Shown in pieces: positions 49,536 to 60,764 of a DNA stretch of 64,000 nucleotides. The translations under genes and the position numbers were made by a program. Every line of letters begins with the position of its first letter. Position 1 is the stretch's first letter. The stretch is from contig JAHBVB010000001.1 of assembly GCA_019637805.1 (NCBI GenBank), positions 261,875 through 325,874 of the forward strand, given 5' to 3'. Below the pieces are notes generated by a model. That model saw nothing but the letters and a program-made list of their open reading frames with translations, was not told where the DNA came from and did not search any database. Source of the DNA: Anaerolineales bacterium. GTDB taxonomy: Bacteria; Chloroflexota; Anaerolineae; Anaerolineales; UBA11579.

Positions 49536-50546
49536 TTGAAAACCGCGGATTTCGACTATATCTTGCCGCCGGAACGGATCGCCCAGCACCCGGTCGAGCC
49601 GCGCGACGCGGCGCGCCTGCTGGTGCTGGAGCGCTCCAGCGGCCAGCGCACGCACACTACTTTTGCCCATTTGCTGGACTACTTGAAGCCTGGCGACCTG
49701 CTGGTAATGAACCGCAGCCGGGTGGTGCCGGCCCGCATTGCGGCGCATAAACTGCCCGGCGGCGGCAAAGCCGAGCTGCTGCTGCTGGAGCGCGTGGACG
49801 AGCTGCACTGGAAGGCCCTGGTGGGCGGCAAGGGACTCGGCCCCGGCAAGCAGCTCCAGCTGCCCAACCGCATTGTGGCGACCGTCGAACAAGACCTGGG
49901 CGGGGCGCAGCGCTTGGTGGCTTTCAGCCAGCCGCTGGATGCGGACCTGCCCGATCTGGGCGTGATGCCGCTGCCGCCTTATATTCACGCCCCGCTGGCC
50001 GACCCGGCCCGTTACCAAACCGTGTACGCGCAGGAATCCGGCTCCGCGGCAGCGCCCACGGCTGGCCTGCACTTCACGCCAGAACTGCTGGATGCGCTGC
50101 GCGCCAAAGGCGTGGGCACGGCCAGCGTGCTGCTGCATGTGGGGCTGGACACGTTTGCGCCGGTGACGGAAGAGAACGCCGAAGAGCATGTCATCCACAC
50201 CGAGTGGTGCCAGCTGAGCGCCGAAACTGCCGCACAGATCACGGCGGCCAAGCAAGCCGGGGGGCGTGTGGTGGCGGTGGGTACCACCTCCGTGCGCACG
50301 CTGGAGACGGCGGCGCGGGGCGGCCGCCTGGCGGCCTACCAGGGCCGCAGCGATCTGTTCATTCGACCGGGATACGATTTCCAAATTGTGGATGCGATGC
50401 TGACCAATTTCCACCTGCCGCGTTCCACCCTGCTGATGCTGGTCAGCGCCTTTGCCGGGCGCGAGTTGATCCTGCAGACCTACCAAGAGGCCATCGCCCA
50501 AGAATATCGTTTTTATTCTTTTGGGGATGCGATGCTGATCTTCTAA
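49536..50546 (+). CDS. queA: S-adenosylmethionine:tRNA ribosyltransferase-isomerase
   Basis: 336 residues starting at a TTG 2 bp after the ruvB stop. QueA transfers and rearranges the ribosyl moiety of SAM onto preQ1 in tRNA, the step after Tgt (29.1 kb). Landmarks: FDYILPPERIAQHPVEPRDAARLL (shown by its first and last parts F6-L28), LLVMNRSRVVPAR, the core AAPTAGLHFTPELLDAL, TFAPVTEENAEEHVIHTEW and the C-terminal DAMLTNFHLPRSTLLMLVSAFAG. Full length for the family. The TTG start is supported by the conserved block beginning five residues later. Its last 4 bp overlap the convergent GAF-HD-GYP gene. Confidence 0.97.
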   Translation: MKTADFDYILPPERIAQHPVEPRDAARLLVLERSSGQRTHTTFAHLLDYLKPGDLLVMNRSRVVPARIAAHKLPGGGKAELLLLERVDELHWKALVGGKGLGPGKQLQLPNRIVATVEQDLGGAQRLVAFSQPLDADLPDLGVMPLPPYIHAPLADPARYQTVYAQESGSAAAPTAGLHFTPELLDALRAKGVGTASVLLHVGLDTFAPVTEENAEEHVIHTEWCQLSAETAAQITAAKQAGGRVVAVGTTSVRTLETAARGGRLAAYQGRSDLFIRPGYDFQIVDAMLTNFHLPRSTLLMLVSAFAGRELILQTYQEAIAQEYRFYSFGDAMLIF

Positions 50547-53500
50547 ACAGCCTGGACTTGTATGACCTTCAAAAAGGCCTGCACCACTTGCGGGTCGAAC
50601 TGCGTGCCACTGTGCGCCACGAGCTCGGCAATGGCTTCTTCATGGCCCATTGACTTGCGATAGACACGATCATCGGTCATGGCGACATAGGCATCAGCCA
50701 CGCTGATAATGCGCGCAATACGGGGGATCTGCTCCCCCTTGAGTTCATCCGGGTAGCCGCGGCCATCGTAACGTTCCTGATGGGCTCGAATGATGGGAGC
50801 AACACCTTCGAGGTATTTGACACCTTCCACGATGTGGGCGCCGATCTCCGGGTGGCGGCGCATGATGGCCGTCTCATCCGGGGTCAGATCGCCGGGCTTG
50901 CGCAAAATCTCATCCGGCACGCCAATCTTGCCAATGTCGTGCAGCAAGCCGGCCCAAAGAATATCGAGCTGTTCGTCCGATGTGCAGCCCAATTCCTGGC
51001 CGGTCAGCACAGCCAGGTCGGCCAACCGGCGGCTGTGTCCGCTGGTGTAGCTGTCACGCACATCAATGGCGCTGGCCAGGGCAGTCACCGTCTGCACATA
51101 AGCTTCCTGGGCGTCTTCGAAGAGGCGCGCATTCTCCAGGGCAATGGCGGCGTGGGCGGCGAAGACAGAGACCAGCTGGGCATCCTTGTGGGTGAACTGA
51201 TTTTCCTGGTAGCCATCCACCGTCAGCATACCAATGCAGCGCCCGCGCGCCACCAGCGGCGCGCCGATCCACGACACGATATTTTCGATGCCCGGCATGA
51301 CGATCCACTCCGGCTGCTGGTGGACGTTGCCATGCAGGATGGTTTCGTGGTCGAAGATGATCGGATGCATTAGCCGGTTTTCTTCCAGGGGAATTTCCAT
51401 GCCGAGCAAGCTCTCATCCAAGGCGCCGGCCAAAGCCTGTAACTTGAGATGCCCATTTTCTCTGATCTGGATGGAGGCGCTCTCAAAGGGCACGACCTGA
51501 TTGAGCTGCTCGAGGATCAGGTTCAAGACCTTGGCCCGGTCGGTCTCGCTGTTGAGGATGGCGGCCACTTCACGCAGGGTTTCCGCCTGCTGGCGCTGGG
51601 CACGCTCAGAGCCGAACAGGCGCAGTTTCTCGATGGCATTGGCCAACTGGTTGGCAATCGTCTCCATCAGGCGCAAATCACGGTCACTAAAAGCATCCAG
51701 CTGGGCGCTCTCGGCATTGATCACGCCGATGACCCGCTGGCTGTTGTTCAGCAGCGGCACGCACAATTCAGAGCGCATGCTGCTGCTGACATTCAGGTAA
51801 TTGGGCTCTTTGCGCACGTCGGGAACCCGCCAGGACGTGCCGCTGCTGGCGACCTTGCCGACCACACCCTGCGACAGGTGGACCCGGCGGCGCTTGATCT
51901 CGTCTGAAATACCGCGATAGCTGCGGTTGACGGTCAGATGCTCACCGTTGGGCTCCAGCATCAGGAAACCAAACTGGTCAGGATAGACGCTGTCGCCAAT
52001 CACTTCCGTGGCGCGTTCGAGCAGCTCTTCTTCGCTCTTGGCGTTTAGCGCCGCCTGGCTAATCGAGTGCAGTACGGTCAATTCTTGCAGTTGTCGTCTT
52101 GTGGAATCGAAAAGATCGATGCCTTCCAAGGCCACCGAGATCTGTTCGCACAGCGTGGTCAGGGCGCCCACTTCGTAAGAGTCGAAAGCGTTAGGTTGGT
52201 CGCTTTCAATATTCAGCAGGGCGACCACGCGTTTGTAGATCTTGATCGGAATGACCAGCTCGGACTGGATGGCTTCATGCCCGTCCACCAGCAGGTAGCC
52301 GGCTCGCTGGTGGACGTTGTTGACCACAATAGGTTTACCGGTAGCCGCCGCCTCGCCCAGCAGGCCGACCCCAAAAGGCTGGCGGTAGCCGCCCCGGGCC
52401 TTCATCAGCGGGGTGAAGCTGCCGGCAGCTTGAGCCACTCTGTATTCCCGGCTGGTCTCGTCCACCAAGGCTATGTCGGTGGAGGTGTACTGCATGTCTG
52501 TGTTCAAGCGCTCGACAACGATCTGGAACAGCTTATCGGTGTCCAGCACGCCGCTCATTTCCCCGGTGAGCTTGTTAAGCACACTGAGTTGGCGGGCGCG
52601 GCGTTCTTCGGCGGCGGCGGTGCGCAGCCGCTCAATGCCGCCGGCCAGTTGGCCCGCAAAGGTAAGCAAAATACGTTCATCTTTTTCGCTGAAATGATCG
52701 GCCTTTTGGCTTTCGGCGTTGATCACCCCTATCACGCGGTCGCCAATCTTCATGGGCACACACAGCTCAGAAAGGGTCTGGGTGTCGTACCCCAGATAAT
52801 TCTTCAGTTTGCGTACATCAGCCACTCGCTGCGCTTTGCCGGTTTTGGCTACCTGGCCGGTGACGCCCTGGCCCAACTCAATCACATTCTGGTGGATGGC
52901 GTCTTCACTCTGATAAGAGGGATGGATCTGCAAACGGTTTTCCGTCTGGTCCAGCATGATCACGCCGAAGTTGTCGGGATACAAACTATCCCGGATGAGG
53001 TCTGTGGCGCGGACAATAAGTTGGTCTTCATCCGTGGCTTCAGTGGCCGCCGTGGATACCTGGTAGAGGATGCTGAGTTCCTGCAACTGGCGGTTGGTGG
53101 CTTCAAAGAGGTGGGCGTTCTCTACAGCCACGGCAGCCTGGTGGCAGAGGGTCTGCGCCAGGTAGATCTCCCGGTCGCTAAACTCTCGTGACAGGCGGGT
53201 CTCATGCAGCTCCACCACGCCCACCAGGCGGTTCTGCGCCACCAGGGGCAGCAGCAGTAAAGCGTGCACGCCGGCTTTTTTCAGCGCCTGTTTTTCCTTG
53301 CGAGATAAGCCCGTGTTCGCCTGGCTTTTTTGGATGGCGCCGCGCTGCTCTGAGACAGGGATGCCCAGTTTGTCGGCCAGCGTATAGTGGGTCCCCTGCC
53401 GGTCAGGCACGGGGATGCCGGGGTTGGTGTAACGCAGCTTAACCTGCAAAGCTTCCGTATTGGGGTGCCATTCAGAGAACAGGCAGACGGGCACATCAAT

Positions 53501-53713
53501 TAAGCGGGTCAGCTGTTGGGCGATAATTTGCAGAACTTTGTCAACTTCCAGGTTGGAAGCGATGCCCGCGCCGGCGATAGCCAGGGCGGCCAATTCTTCG
53601 ACATACTGCAATTCAACGTTCGAAGCAGAGTCTTCGCGAAGTTGGTCAGTGGGGCGTAATTTCATGCTGTTCGCGTCAACAACAGGCAGCTTTATTCGGG
53701 TTAGCGTGGCCAT
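50543..53713 (-). CDS. Five-GAF HD-GYP cyclic-di-GMP phosphodiesterase
   Basis: 1056 residues, no membrane helix. Five consecutive GAF domains (about 40-205, 210-370, 378-540, 545-700, 705-865) share landmarks such as SELCVPMKIGDRVIGVINAES and SELCVPLLNNSQRVIGVINAES (positions ~315 and ~650), which shows internal duplication of a GAF pair. The C-terminal HD-GYP domain is complete: SGHSRRLADLAV, LLHDIGKIGVPDEIL, RRHPEIGAHIV, AHQERYDGRGYPDELKG and VADAYVAMTDDR. It should hydrolyse c-di-GMP under control of several intracellular ligands. The promoter side faces the two small peptide genes on the same strand, with a terminator between. Confidence 0.93.
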   Translation of the reverse strand: MATLTRIKLPVVDANSMKLRPTDQLREDSASNVELQYVEELAALAIAGAGIASNLEVDKVLQIIAQQLTRLIDVPVCLFSEWHPNTEALQVKLRYTNPGIPVPDRQGTHYTLADKLGIPVSEQRGAIQKSQANTGLSRKEKQALKKAGVHALLLLPLVAQNRLVGVVELHETRLSREFSDREIYLAQTLCHQAAVAVENAHLFEATNRQLQELSILYQVSTAATEATDEDQLIVRATDLIRDSLYPDNFGVIMLDQTENRLQIHPSYQSEDAIHQNVIELGQGVTGQVAKTGKAQRVADVRKLKNYLGYDTQTLSELCVPMKIGDRVIGVINAESQKADHFSEKDERILLTFAGQLAGGIERLRTAAAEERRARQLSVLNKLTGEMSGVLDTDKLFQIVVERLNTDMQYTSTDIALVDETSREYRVAQAAGSFTPLMKARGGYRQPFGVGLLGEAAATGKPIVVNNVHQRAGYLLVDGHEAIQSELVIPIKIYKRVVALLNIESDQPNAFDSYEVGALTTLCEQISVALEGIDLFDSTRRQLQELTVLHSISQAALNAKSEEELLERATEVIGDSVYPDQFGFLMLEPNGEHLTVNRSYRGISDEIKRRRVHLSQGVVGKVASSGTSWRVPDVRKEPNYLNVSSSMRSELCVPLLNNSQRVIGVINAESAQLDAFSDRDLRLMETIANQLANAIEKLRLFGSERAQRQQAETLREVAAILNSETDRAKVLNLILEQLNQVVPFESASIQIRENGHLKLQALAGALDESLLGMEIPLEENRLMHPIIFDHETILHGNVHQQPEWIVMPGIENIVSWIGAPLVARGRCIGMLTVDGYQENQFTHKDAQLVSVFAAHAAIALENARLFEDAQEAYVQTVTALASAIDVRDSYTSGHSRRLADLAVLTGQELGCTSDEQLDILWAGLLHDIGKIGVPDEILRKPGDLTPDETAIMRRHPEIGAHIVEGVKYLEGVAPIIRAHQERYDGRGYPDELKGEQIPRIARIISVADAYVAMTDDRVYRKSMGHEEAIAELVAHSGTQFDPQVVQAFLKVIQVQAV

Positions 53714-53763: not shown

Positions 53764-53790
53764 AGCGAGGGTGAGAACCTTACCCTCGCT
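53764..53790 (-). terminator. Terminator of the small-peptide operon
   Basis: A 9-bp stem (53764-53772 with 53782-53790) followed on the minus strand by TGTGGTTTTT. It separates the peptide genes from the five-GAF gene. Confidence 0.75.
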
Positions 53791-53834: not shown

Positions 53835-54050
53835 TTAGGCGGCTACCACATTCGGCTGGATCAGACCGCTCAGATGACGGATAAATTGATCCAGATCCAT
53901 CGCTTGAATGGACATCACAGCCGCGACTTCTTCCTCATTCAACTCGAAAGCACGCAGGTGATCCTTGACTTCGCCATTGAGCAGGGCCGCTTTGAATTCG
54001 TTGTCCAACAAGGCTTGGGTAGCGATTGCGTTCAATTTTAGCTTGGACAT
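53835..54050 (-). CDS. NHLP/Os1348-like leader-type small peptide (possible RiPP precursor)
   Basis: 71 residues starting MSKLKLNAIATQALLDNEF, with the pattern A-x-x-D-x-x-F-x-x-x-L-L, then L-x-x-F-x-L-x-x-E-E-x-x-A and D-L-x-x-F, as in the Nif11/nitrile-hydratase-like leader peptides of ribosomally made, modified peptides (Os1348 branch). The tail after the leader is short (SGLIQPNVVAA) and has no Cys, Ser or Thr-rich core except one Ser. No modifying enzyme is nearby. An ACGAGGAA site precedes the ATG. It lies 39 bp downstream of the repeat peptide gene, in the same operon. It could be a precursor, a chaperone-like leader, or a degenerated copy. Confidence 0.65.
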   Translation of the reverse strand: MSKLKLNAIATQALLDNEFKAALLNGEVKDHLRAFELNEEEVAAVMSIQAMDLDQFIRHLSGLIQPNVVAA

Positions 54051-54089: not shown

Positions 54090-54281
54090 TTAGTGAGCGC
54101 TGGGGCCGGTGCCGATGCCGCCACCGCGGGGCTGGTTGAACAGCGGACCAGTGCCAATACCACCGCCACGCGGCTGATTGAACAGCGGGCCAGTGCCAAT
54201 GCCACCGCCACGCGGCTGGTTGAACAAGGGGCCGGTGCCGATGCCGCCACCACGCGGTTGGTTCATGTGAATGTTAGTCAT
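54090..54281 (-). CDS. Four-repeat Gly-rich precursor-like peptide
   Basis: 63 residues: a six-residue start (MTNIHM), then four units of NQPRGGGIGTGP separated by Leu-Phe, and a tail SAH. The 14-residue unit is encoded by a 42-bp tandem repeat. The units are identical in protein but differ by three to nine silent base changes, which shows selection for the peptide sequence and argues against a random DNA repeat. A strong GGAGGA site lies 6 nt before the ATG. Repeats of this kind are seen in multi-core precursors cut into several copies of a small peptide, or in structural repeats. No protease or modifying enzyme is encoded next to it. I do not know a named family. Confidence 0.78.
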   Translation of the reverse strand: MTNIHMNQPRGGGIGTGPLFNQPRGGGIGTGPLFNQPRGGGIGTGPLFNQPRGGGIGTGPSAH

Positions 54282-54380
54282 TTGTCTTCCTCCGAAGTTT
54301 GTTTGTGTTTTTGATATGCCGGATGATAGAAGATGCCCTATGAACGTAGGTATGAGCAGGTTTCATGCCATTAAAAAACA

Positions 54381-54404
54381 AAAAACCGCCGGGGGGCGGT
54401 TTTT
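54381..54404 (-). terminator. Terminator of the MalT/BTAD regulator gene
   Basis: A 10-bp stem (54381-54390 with 54395-54404), GGGG loop, with long T-runs on the minus strand. Confidence 0.9.
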
Positions 54405-54423
54405 TCTCGAGCATGCGGCTGTC

Positions 54424-57400
54424 TCAGACCTTGATGGACAGCTGCTGATAGTAGGCGTGCAACTCTGGCAGGGGTTCCGCGTTCAGTTCCTCACGCAGCA
54501 AGGCACGATATTTTTTGAAGTGAGCGATGGCGGTGGAGGGGGAGCCAGCCAGGGCCATGCAGTGCATCAAGGCCAGGTGGACATCGTCGCGATATGGATC
54601 GATCTTGAGGATCTTTTCGAACAAGAGCTTGGCTTCGCGATACTGCTTGTTATCTTTTTCGGCGGCGGCCAGCTCCATCAGGGCATCCAAATAGCGGCTG
54701 CGCAATTCTTCGCGGCGGCGGTCTGACCAATCCATGTAAGTGTCGAGCAGGTAATGGTCGTTGTACAAGTCCAGGGCGCGGCGCAGCATCTCGATCCGCT
54801 CCAGCTTGGAACGGTTGGGCTGGCCGGCCTGGGTCAACAAGTCTTCAAACTGCGCCACGTCATACCAGACCTGGAATGAGGGATGCAGCGCGTACTGCTC
54901 ATTTTCAAAGGTGATGGCATCTTTGGAGCCAAGTGCCTGGCGCACGCGCCACAGGGTGGCGTGAAAGTTGCTGCTGATCTTGCCAGAACTGAAGTCCGGC
55001 CAGAACTCCAGGCCGATGGCGTCTTTGCGTACGCTGCCCTTGTCCAGAATAAAGAAGAACAAGGCGCGCGCCCGGCTGGAGCGCCACACAGCCCCGGGGA
55101 TGACCTGGCCATTTTGGCGAATTTCCCCAAGGCCGAAAGCTTTCACCTCCAACAGAGCCGGTTGAATATCTTCGATCTGCGGCTTGCTCTCCAAGGCTGC
55201 TTTGCCAGTGGCAAAGCGGGCCAGACGGTCCAACAACGTTTGCACCTGGCCGGCGGCGCCGTTCTTGGACAAGAACTGGACAAACTCCGGGTGAAAGCGC
55301 AAAACGGGCACCATGAACTGGTCAAAGCCCAGACGCGCCGATCCTTCCAGCGCCCGGTGCAAATACTTTTTGGCGGCGCGCTCATTGCCGGTATAGAAGC
55401 TGGTGCGGGCAGCCAGCAGCGCCGCCAACACCTGTGACTGCTTGGGCAACTTGGTCTTGGGCCAGTCTGCCAGCACTTTGTCAAATTCCGCCATTGCCAG
55501 CGGCTCTTGCCCCATTTCGGCATAGACGTAGCCGAGTTCCGCCAGGTACTCGGTTTCATCAATGCCGGCGCCCGCCGCTTTGCGCAGCCACTTCATCGAC
55601 TCGTTGTAGCGGCCTTCTTTGCGCTCGAAGCGGCCAAGCGCCAGGTAGGTGCCGGAAAGCTCGGGCAGCTCTTCTTGGTCGAGTGACAAGGCCTGGTCCA
55701 GCAGGGATTTGGCCTCTTGCAGTTCATCGACATCCAACAACAACTCGGCCTGGCCATTGAGGATCGAAATTTGCACCGGCGCCTGCCCGGCGATCTGGGC
55801 ATGCTCCAAGGCCAGTCGGTACTCACGCCAGGCCAAGGCATACTCACCCACCTGGTGATGCAGATAGCCAATGTTGTTGCGCGCCGAGGCCAGTGCGCCG
55901 AGATTGCTGCGGATCTCCACATGAATATCGAGTGTTTCCTGGAAGGCTTTCTGCGCCTCCAGCATGCGGCCCTGGGCCAGTTCGATCAGGCCCAGGTCAT
56001 TCAGGCACTCGGCCAGGTCGTAGGCAAACTGTGTGCGGTTTGGCGTGTCTTCCAAGGCCAGCTGACGCAGACCCGCCGCGGCGGTTTCCAAACTGGCCAC
56101 GGCCAAATCCACGCGGCCCTGATAATAGAGCGGCACCGCTTTGAGGCGTTCCGCCTGAAGCCATTTCTGGCGGCTCTCGGGCTTTTGCGATTTCTTATCT
56201 AACAGACCCTGGGCTTCTTCTGCCAGAGCCAAGGCTTGTTTGTGTTTGCCGGTCAGGCGCAGGATCATGCCGCGGGTAACAATGGCGTTAACGTAAGCAT
56301 CGGTGTCGCTCTCGGCCAGGATCGGCTCTGCCATCTCCAGCAGCTTCAAAGAGGCGGCATAGGCACCCTGGTTGCCCAGGATCTTTGCCTGGTAGAGCAA
56401 GAGGTGCGGTGCCAGGGTGCGCTGGTCCGGCGCTTTCTTGAGGCCATCCACCCAGCGGCTGAGCAGCATCTGGCGGCCTGAGGTGTAGAAATCCACCGCC
56501 ACCTGGTCCATCCAGCGGGCGGCCTCAGGCCGCTCGCCGGAAGCCAGCTTGTGGGCGATAGCCCCTTCCCAGTCACGGCGCTGGTGGTGCCAGTCTGCAG
56601 CGCGCCTGTGCAGGCTCTTGAAACGCGCTTTGTGGTGGCGTTCAAAATAGTCCTGCAGAAATTCGGCGAACAACTGATGGTAGCGGTAACTGGGGCCCTC
56701 CGAAGTTTCGGTGCGGCTGACAAACAGATTGCGCTCCTCGAGGGAACGCAGAAAATTGGCCGAATCTTCTATCTCTAGAACATAGTTGCACAGGGCTTCA
56801 TTGAAGTCGCCCAGCACCGAAGTGGCCAGCATAAAATCGCGCAGGTCCTCGGCCAGGCGGTTGACCACTTCTTCAGCCAGGTAGTTGTAGATGTGTTCGA
56901 CCTTGCCGGTCAGCGAGGGCAGGACCCCGTTTTCCATGGTGCGCAGGGCCAGCAAGATGGCCACGATCCAGCCATCGGCCCGCTCGGCAAACTCCCGGGC
57001 CTGCTCATCGCTGAGCTTGACATGGTGGTTCTGCAAAACCAGTTTTTGCAGCTCGTCCGCCCGGAAGCGCAGTTCGTCCGGGCTGATGGTGACCAGTTCG
57101 TCACGAATGTAGAGGCTGGCGGTTGGGATGCCATAGACGCTGCGCGAGCCGATCAGGATGCGCAGACGGTCTGGCAGGTTTTCCAGCAGGTTCTCAATGA
57201 AGTCAACAATGTGCTGGTTTTCGCCCGCCAAATGGTAGTCGTCCAAGATCAGCAGGGAGAAGTCTTGTACCTTTTGCTCGACTTCATTAATGAAGTCGAT
57301 GGCCAGGCTGCCGGCGTCTGGCTGGCCGCCCAGAGAGACCAGTTTTTCTTCCAGCTCTTCGCCAAACCCATCCACCTGCTGCTGAAAAGAAGCCACCAAA

Positions 57401-57636
57401 TGGCGCACAAACTGCACCAGGTCATTGTCCTCGGCGGCGATACGGTACCAAAAGACCAACGCATCCACGTCGGAGGCAAAATCTACCAGTAGTGTGGTTT
57501 TTCCATAGCCCGCGGGGGCCGAGACGAAGGTCAGCTTGCGATGCAGATTCTGGTGGAGCACGTCAATTAGACGCACACGGCGCAAAACATCTTTGCGCCG
57601 TTGCGGTGGACGTACTTTGGTCAGCAGAATGGCCAT
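54424..57636 (-). CDS. MalT-like ATPase transcription regulator with C-terminal BTAD domain
   Basis: About 1070 residues. An N-terminal STAND/NB-ARC-like ATPase has Walker A in VSAPAGYGKTTLLVDF and Walker B in LLILDDYHL, as in MalT (landmarks RLRILIGSR and FAERADGWIVAILLAL). A long helical TPR region (~340-800) probably binds an effector. The C-terminal ~240 residues have a winged helix (VWRSSRARALFFFILDKG, FHATLWRVRQALG) and a bacterial transcriptional activation domain (BTAD, ALDLYNDHYLLDTYMDWSDRRREELRSRY by position), as in SARP activators, instead of the LuxR helix-turn-helix of MalT. It likely senses a small molecule or peptide. It sits directly upstream of the two small peptide genes on the same strand. 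I use the ATG at 57636. Confidence 0.88.
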   Translation of the reverse strand: MAILLTKVRPPQRRKDVLRRVRLIDVLHQNLHRKLTFVSAPAGYGKTTLLVDFASDVDALVFWYRIAAEDNDLVQFVRHLVASFQQQVDGFGEELEEKLVSLGGQPDAGSLAIDFINEVEQKVQDFSLLILDDYHLAGENQHIVDFIENLLENLPDRLRILIGSRSVYGIPTASLYIRDELVTISPDELRFRADELQKLVLQNHHVKLSDEQAREFAERADGWIVAILLALRTMENGVLPSLTGKVEHIYNYLAEEVVNRLAEDLRDFMLATSVLGDFNEALCNYVLEIEDSANFLRSLEERNLFVSRTETSEGPSYRYHQLFAEFLQDYFERHHKARFKSLHRRAADWHHQRRDWEGAIAHKLASGERPEAARWMDQVAVDFYTSGRQMLLSRWVDGLKKAPDQRTLAPHLLLYQAKILGNQGAYAASLKLLEMAEPILAESDTDAYVNAIVTRGMILRLTGKHKQALALAEEAQGLLDKKSQKPESRQKWLQAERLKAVPLYYQGRVDLAVASLETAAAGLRQLALEDTPNRTQFAYDLAECLNDLGLIELAQGRMLEAQKAFQETLDIHVEIRSNLGALASARNNIGYLHHQVGEYALAWREYRLALEHAQIAGQAPVQISILNGQAELLLDVDELQEAKSLLDQALSLDQEELPELSGTYLALGRFERKEGRYNESMKWLRKAAGAGIDETEYLAELGYVYAEMGQEPLAMAEFDKVLADWPKTKLPKQSQVLAALLAARTSFYTGNERAAKKYLHRALEGSARLGFDQFMVPVLRFHPEFVQFLSKNGAAGQVQTLLDRLARFATGKAALESKPQIEDIQPALLEVKAFGLGEIRQNGQVIPGAVWRSSRARALFFFILDKGSVRKDAIGLEFWPDFSSGKISSNFHATLWRVRQALGSKDAITFENEQYALHPSFQVWYDVAQFEDLLTQAGQPNRSKLERIEMLRRALDLYNDHYLLDTYMDWSDRRREELRSRYLDALMELAAAEKDNKQYREAKLLFEKILKIDPYRDDVHLALMHCMALAGSPSTAIAHFKKYRALLREELNAEPLPELHAYYQQLSIKV

Positions 57637-60146: not shown

Positions 60147-60764
60147 ATGGTTCGTATCCGATTGCGCCGAGTAGGCGGCAAAAAGCAGGCCACTTTCCGT
60201 ATCGTGGCGGCTGACAAAGAAAGCCCCCGAGACGGCCGCTTCATTGAAATCCTTGGCTTTTATAACCCGCGCACTGAGCCGGCCACAATTAGCTTGAAGG
60301 AAGACCGCATTTATCATTGGATTGGCAATGGCGCCGTCCCCAGCGATTCCGCCAGCCAGATCTTCCAGACCGCTGGCTTGCTGGCGCGCTTTGAGCGCTA
60401 CAAAGCCGGTGAGGGCCTGGAAGCCCTGCTGGCCGAGGCTGAAGCAGCCGACAAGACCCGCAACGCCAACACCAAGACCCGCCGCCCGGCTCCCCCAGCC
60501 GGCAGTTCCAAGCGCAAGCAGGCCGCCCGCGACGCAGCTGCGGCGGCCGCCGCCGAAGCCGCCAAGGCTCAGGCGGAGGCCCCTGCTGCAGCCCCGGCGG
60601 CGGAAGAAGCCGCACCGGTGGCAGAAGCTGAGGCCCCAGCGGCTGAGGCCGCCCCGGCTGAAGAAGCTGAAGCCCCCGCCGCCGAAGAAACCCCGGCTGA
60701 GGCTGAAGCCCCGGCAGCTGAAGAAACCCCTGCTGAGGACACCCCGGCCGAAGCCGCCGAATAA
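60147..60764 (+). CDS. rpsP: 30S ribosomal protein bS16 with long Ala/Glu/Pro-rich tail
   Basis: 205 residues, more than twice the usual ~85-90. The ribosomal part (1-~90) is clear: MVRIRLRRVGGKKQATFRIV, DGRFIEILGFYNP and WIGNGAVPSDSASQIF. The remaining ~115 residues are a low-complexity tail, first basic (TKTRRPAPPAGSSKRKQ) and then a long run of Ala, Glu and Pro with short repeats of A-P-A-A-E-E. The tail is probably disordered and exposed on the ribosome. It heads the rpsP-khpA-rimM operon, the common arrangement (without ffh and trmD here). An AGGAG site is upstream of the ATG. Confidence 0.94.
   Translation: MVRIRLRRVGGKKQATFRIVAADKESPRDGRFIEILGFYNPRTEPATISLKEDRIYHWIGNGAVPSDSASQIFQTAGLLARFERYKAGEGLEALLAEAEAADKTRNANTKTRRPAPPAGSSKRKQAARDAAAAAAAEAAKAQAEAPAAAPAAEEAAPVAEAEAPAAEAAPAEEAEAPAAEETPAEAEAPAAEETPAEDTPAEAAE

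Follow-up and report, generated by a model that had tools for sequence, protein, structure and literature searches.

Yeast alpha-factor and the cyanobactins are made from precursors that each carry several copies of one short peptide. In RNPP pheromone systems of Firmicutes (PlcR-PapR, Rap-Phr, NprR, Rgg-SHP), a TPR receptor is encoded beside a tiny precursor gene, the precursor bears a helix for secretion and ends in a short mature peptide, and the circuit activates itself. AfsS, a protein of 63 aa, contains three 12-aa repeats thought to be crucial for its activity, the mechanism of which is unclear (PMC2267785), and it is activated by the SARP-NOD-TPR protein AfsR through direct repeats (PMC10936776). 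Here we analyze a 64,000-nucleotide stretch of DNA from an Anaerolineales bacterium (the window) containing a cassette that comprises, in order, a STAND-TPR-SARP/BTAD regulator gene, a 12-bp direct-repeat promoter, and genes for a small repeat peptide, an Os1348-like protein, and an HD-domain protein. The layout of the cassette resembles AfsR-AfsS and its logic resembles that of the RNPP pheromones; it is a member of neither.

As in AfsR-AfsS, one activator combines a SARP module (winged helix plus BTAD), a NOD/STAND NTPase, and TPRs, and a direct-repeat promoter adjoins the −10 element; the activated neighbor, 63 aa long, carries short tandem repeats. Unlike AfsR, which has its SARP module at the N terminus, the regulator has it at the C terminus; the repeat period is 12 bp rather than 11, Os1348-like and HD genes lie in the operon, and a secretion-type helix is present in most relatives. 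The differing domain order and repeat spacing led us not to file the cassette as AfsR-AfsS, with AfsS compared by size and repeat layout only. Placement of a TPR receptor (putative, by sequence) beside a tiny precursor gene and the self-activation logic are shared with RNPP systems, as are, in most relatives but not in the window genus, the secretion helix and short C-terminal mature peptide. Because the receptor differs, being a STAND-SARP protein rather than an HTH-TPR protein or Rap phosphatase, and because the window peptide has no signal helix, we did not assign the cassette to this group either; tandem copies and a Chloroflexota host further set it apart. Like alpha-factor and cyanobactin precursors, the peptide gene holds several copies of one short peptide identical, but the genus peptide has no leader or recognized processing signals, and the hosts and regulators are different. 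Finally, the second product of the operon is distantly related to Os1348 and the NHLP-clan RiPP precursors, yet it has no core, no nearby modifying enzymes, and no C39 exporter; its score under the family cut-off and the lack of such enzymes near the locus are why we did not file the cassette there.

A tandem-repeat peptide gene

The peptide gene (54090..54281, minus strand) is a 63-aa open reading frame recognized by its conservation across the genus and by the array selection test below. Its translation reads MTNIHM-(NQPRGGGIGTGPLF)x3-NQPRGGGIGTGP-SAH. By codons, units 1 (54222..54263), 2 (54180..54221), and 3 (54138..54179), all on the minus strand, are each NQPRGGGIGTGPLF, and unit 4 (54102..54137, minus strand) is the 12-residue NQPRGGGIGTGP, which ends in GP-SAH instead of LF. 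Tandem Repeats Finder reports the array at 54103-54263 with a period of 42 and 3.8 copies. The first-pass annotation had described four identical 14-residue repeats separated by three to nine synonymous base differences. Three of the units are full length and the fourth is shorter; a codon count bears out that every pairwise difference is silent, with a range that extends from 3 to 10. A ribosome binding site, GGAGG, is seen at 54289-54293 (minus strand). Only MTNIHM precedes the first unit, leaving the protein without an N-terminal leader of the kind found in multi-core RiPP precursors. The window unit lacks both Cys and Ser and offers few residues open to modification, and throughout the genus the peptide is hydrophilic, rich in Gly and Pro, and free of a signal helix.

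Selection on the repeats within the genus

We compared the window genome with 10 congeners, giving 11 genomes of the genus; the genomes used throughout this analysis appear to be mostly assemblies of uncultured organisms. The peptide locus is present in 10/10 congeners, with four to five units in each except G004, and the whole cassette is kept in 11/11 genomes. Counting the eight codons per unit that encode the core xPxGGG[IV]G, across ten arrays of the genus (G004 excluded), we found 211 synonymous and 0 nonsynonymous pairwise within-array differences; approximately 71% of random single-base changes in one unit would change the protein. Between species the core does differ, and it does so in all units of an array at once. 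The arrays of the window and G010 are built of NQPRGGGIGTGP, that of G003 of NQPLGGGIGTGP, that of G001 of NHPIGGGIGTGP, and that of G002 of SYPIGGGIGSGP; units are HPVGGGIGT(A/G)P in G005, G008, and G009, HPVGGGVGTGP in G007, and RPVGGGVGG(F/Y)P, five times over, in G006. G004 carries a diverged array of ANQPLSGGIGG units and a decayed first copy. In some species the linker after GxG varies between units; the core never does.

Because core differences within arrays are exclusively synonymous and the core shifts in concert between species, we infer that the identity of the units is held by selection, not chance. Recent gene conversion was considered as its cause and rejected, since, over the core, the units of G000 stand farther from one another (4 differences per pair) than from the matching units of G010 (1 difference per unit). 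Judged by these sequences, the window units predate the split from G010, and conversion may have spread core changes across units. The initial proposal that the exact peptide matters is thus upheld, as is the notion of several copies of one small peptide, since the units behave as copies; nonsynonymous variation between the repeats of close relatives, which the first-pass annotation had named as contrary evidence, is absent from the core and confined to the linker in some species.

Regulator and cassette neighborhood

Directly upstream on the same strand lies the gene for a 1,070-aa regulator (54424..57636, minus strand) composed of a MalT-like STAND NTPase, a TPR superhelix, and a C-terminal winged helix and BTAD that form a SARP module. 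In profile searches against solved structures, residues 4-411 match MalT (8bob, E 6e-73), residues 822-1068 match the AfsR SARP (8jke, E 1e-33), and the middle part matches TPR proteins that include NprR and Rap phosphatases. These matches to pheromone receptors are generic, with kinesin light chain and others scoring higher, and the regulator does not belong to the Rap/PlcR/Rgg/NprR family. An AF2 model (pLDDT 88) gave MalT and the STAND-TPR protein 6mfv as top Foldseek matches. The N-terminal STAND NTPase followed by TPR-like repeats recalls MalT and other LAL regulators, which differ in that a LuxR HTH replaces the terminal SARP module and in the adjacent peptide gene found here.

Within the genus, the regulator varies most in its TPR domain (53% identity vs 79% for the NTPase), which contains conserved Asn residues at N578, N587, and N588. 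Variable TPRs beside species-specific peptides are the pattern of a receptor-ligand pair, a correspondence that is only suggestive. The regulator is the one BTAD protein in the window genome. Together with the conserved adjacency and the dedicated direct-repeat promoter, this supports the earlier suggestion of a link between the peptide and its MalT/BTAD neighbor.

The gene that follows the peptide encodes a small helical protein of 71 aa (53835..54050, minus strand) that is likely a distant relative of Os1348 in the NHLP clan. It matches NF038399 at 24.4 bits (E 2e-5), below the curated cut-off of 40 bits, and the Os1348-like profile matches the Os1348 crystal chain 6lk7 (E 0.011). An AF2 model has five helices (pLDDT 80), and a Foldseek search with it gave no significant match. 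A hairpin 3′ of this gene (53764..53790, minus strand), found by eye and with a loop too long for the rule of our scan, is a possible terminator. The final gene encodes a multi-GAF HD (HD_5) protein of the HD-GYP type (50543..53713, minus strand), which occupies the same position in congeners and many relatives; across the order, the cassette usually ends with this gene.

The congeners examined share this gene order, apart from G004, in which the peptide and Os1348-like pair is tandemly duplicated (L040; contig C49, ∼18.3-19.5 kb). The first peptide copy there is frameshifted and decayed, the second is intact, and the operator stands at the first only. The flanking genes are housekeeping genes (CofD, PGK, TIM, RuvB, QueA, pyrimidine phosphorylase, DegV, and DprA). 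Neither RiPP modifying enzymes nor a peptide ABC exporter was found near the locus, and C39 peptidase is absent from the window genome and from 8/8 good congener genomes. A general peptide importer is represented in the window genome by five SBP_bac_5 matches, which are not specific. Elsewhere in the window (60147-60764, plus strand), a ribosomal protein S16-like protein has a long Ala/Glu/Pro repeat tail, with tandem repeats at 60623-60736.

A direct-repeat operator at the peptide promoter

Between the regulator and peptide genes we found a putative operator, GCTCATACCTACGTTCATAGG (54337..54357, minus strand), a direct repeat with a 12-bp period that is the sole site of its kind in the window genome. 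A −10-like TATCAT (54323..54328, minus strand) is seen 8 nt past the operator as written, and most congeners have TAnnAT at this place. A sigma-70 scan returned no −35/−10 pair at the peptide promoter, as is usual for SARP promoters. The regulator gene is closed by an intrinsic terminator-like hairpin (54380..54405, minus strand), the one hit of the scan, which is weak by itself given that shuffled sequences average 1.1. In SARP promoters, direct repeats recur at 11 or 22 bp, and 8 bp separate the 3′ repeat from the −10 (PMC10936776). The putative operator fits this layout, the 12-bp period excepted.

The spacing recurs beyond the window. Across 39 promoters, self-match at 12 bp averages 7.82 of 9 and reaches at least 8 in 23/39, as against means of 5.3-5.8 and 0-2 promoters at that level for other spacings from 9 to 23 bp. 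The half-site varies by family (GTTCAT, GTTCAG, TTTGCATCC, TTTGAAGCC), and in most cases the two halves shift together; some class-level relatives have 11-bp direct repeats. The genus operator pattern occurs once, at this promoter, in 10/11 genomes and twice in G004. In relatives, related patterns are mostly confined to the cassette; a few additional operator-like sites occur in G011, G018, G020, and G101, and some of these sites precede signal-transduction genes. The second G004 site (C53:2561; L115 / L219) consists of three GTTCAT repeats in 12-bp steps before a LuxR-type HTH gene, a possible regulon member.

Relatives across Chloroflexota

Beyond the genus, the 63-aa protein proved unusable as a search query, returning low-complexity noise in which Gly-rich frames with stops scored equally. 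We instead used the Os1348-like protein as an anchor for finding loci. Its profile matches 42/301 genomes of the order, and a broader version matches 96/298 genomes in the class and 66/400 in the phylum. Loci of relatives (L037-L046, L076-L213) encode a STAND-TPR-BTAD regulator, a small peptide, an Os1348-like protein, and often an HD protein; in some, a DUF5317 membrane protein lies beside the Os1348-like gene. The small peptide of these relatives is typically 35-60 aa long, with a positive N terminus, a hydrophobic helix, and a 7-12-aa Gly-rich tail (for example, GPIPGGIGG, GPSIGGVGS, DGPSPGPVGG, or AGAPSATGSVGG); tails such as the first three stand after small-x-small cleavage-like sites. 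At 36/52 loci outside the genus, the interval separating the Os1348-like gene from the large gene upstream (in most cases the regulator) holds a small ORF with a hydrophobic helix and Gly-rich tail, whereas the same test gave 0 for the reverse strand and 0.1 for shuffled sequences; a recognizable small ORF was missing at the other 16/52. The relatives' peptides that were tested matched no Pfam or NCBIfam family above chance, and phage records yielded no match.

Copy number varies among these loci. G021 encodes a helix followed by seven copies of YGPIPGGVGG, whereas G018, of the same genus, has a single GPIPGGIGG, and G011 has two tandem peptide genes. Since G021 carries both the helix and seven copies of the tail, the repeats are best read, from sequence, as copies of the mature peptide. 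The variable copy number that the earlier annotation proposed looking for is therefore found, with 1, two genes, 4, 5, and 7 among relatives. In a regulator tree, whose root is a drawing choice, the window genus forms one clade (100/100) nested among helix-type lineages, from which the leaderless repeated form is probably derived. Homology of the leaderless repeats to the Gly tails would rest on position and a low-complexity motif.

A different context was seen in genomes of families f82 and f118 (L201, L203, L204, L206, and L207), where an Os1348-family protein lies directly behind a protein of 1,420-1,450 aa that, in L204, is cyclase-ATPase-like in appearance. These are closer Os1348-family members (88 bits in the one tested), and the arrangement may be a second regulator-Os1348 pairing.

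A candidate autoinduction circuit and its alternatives

We propose that the cassette forms a dedicated circuit for peptide autoinduction in which the SARP regulator serves as receptor, a reading to which we give a probability of roughly one half; it builds on what the genomes themselves display, namely the cassette, its unique operator, selection on the repeats, and the secretory form in relatives. The regulator would bind the 12-bp direct repeat that immediately precedes the −10 and activate the next operon, whose products are the Os1348-like protein and the short Gly-rich peptide; the HD-domain protein is encoded behind them. The peptide would be supplied as four copies of PxGGGxGxxP here and, in most relatives, as one 7-12-aa tail released by predicted cleavage from a secretion-type helix. 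Acting as a ligand, it would be sensed by the TPR superhelix, directly or after secretion and uptake, to create positive feedback, with output presumably via the Os1348-like and HD proteins. Near confinement of the operator to the peptide operon is as expected of autoinduction. Against this circuit, no protease for processing came to light, and the lack of a signal helix in the window peptide leaves export unexplained in the window genus.

That same feature would suit the main rival, an intracellular effector of the AfsS type: the 63-aa repeat protein, neither cut nor exported, would work through the transcription machinery or some partner once switched on by the adjacent AfsR-like regulator. 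Layout and size agree with Streptomyces AfsR-AfsS, but peptides in the same slot in relatives consist of a secretion-type helix and little beyond the tail, which points to a secreted ligand, and we regard an effector of this kind as rather unlikely. We see less room for a multi-core RiPP, in which the repeats would be enzyme-modified cores and the Os1348-like protein a leader or carrier. Membership of Os1348-like proteins in the NHLP clan and the duplication of the peptide and Os1348-like genes as a unit in G004 are in keeping with it; the repeat ORF lacks a leader, no core follows the Os1348-like protein, and the neighborhood, the missing C39 peptidase, and the composition of the unit, all described above, run against it. 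Neither the modified natural product put forward in the first-pass annotation nor its further suggestion of a surface repeat is supported.

Similarly improbable is a small secreted peptide, antimicrobial or membrane-active, to which the Os1348-like protein would be a partner or give immunity: Pseudomonas Os1348 affects antibiotic activity (PMC7726476) and relatives have small hydrophobic peptides, but the form in the window genus is hydrophilic and helix-free, and the operator distribution is that predicted by autoinduction. Slippage can create Gly/Pro-rich repeats, so that a low-complexity ORF without function might be imagined; the array selection test refutes this, and conservation in 11 genomes and the operator and ribosome binding site in front leave it a negligible chance. 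A signal, one of the roles first suggested for the peptide, is its best reading. More tentatively, and short of an even chance in our estimation, the autoinduction circuit could represent a peptide pheromone (quorum-sensing) system spread throughout Chloroflexota: a MalT/AfsR-like STAND-TPR-SARP activator serves as receptor for a 7-14-aa PxGGxG ligand present in one to seven copies, the peptide operon is the main target, and AfsR-AfsS is the actinobacterial counterpart.

Significance

Communities of wastewater, sediment, and hot springs count Chloroflexota among their major members. Searches of a library of open-access papers found no account of peptide signaling in this phylum, and queries on Chloroflexota quorum sensing, Chloroflexi SARP with peptide, and DUF5317 found nothing relevant. 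The cassette looks like an undescribed self-amplifying peptide signaling circuit used across the phylum, and as a defined set of receptor, operator, ligand, and helper, in their putative roles, it makes the circuit testable now. The parallel in layout may also help explain how AfsS-type small repeat proteins act beside SARP-STAND-TPR activators: because most relatives of the cassette have an overtly secretory version of the peptide, such small neighbors may, by analogy, be ligands or derived from ligands.
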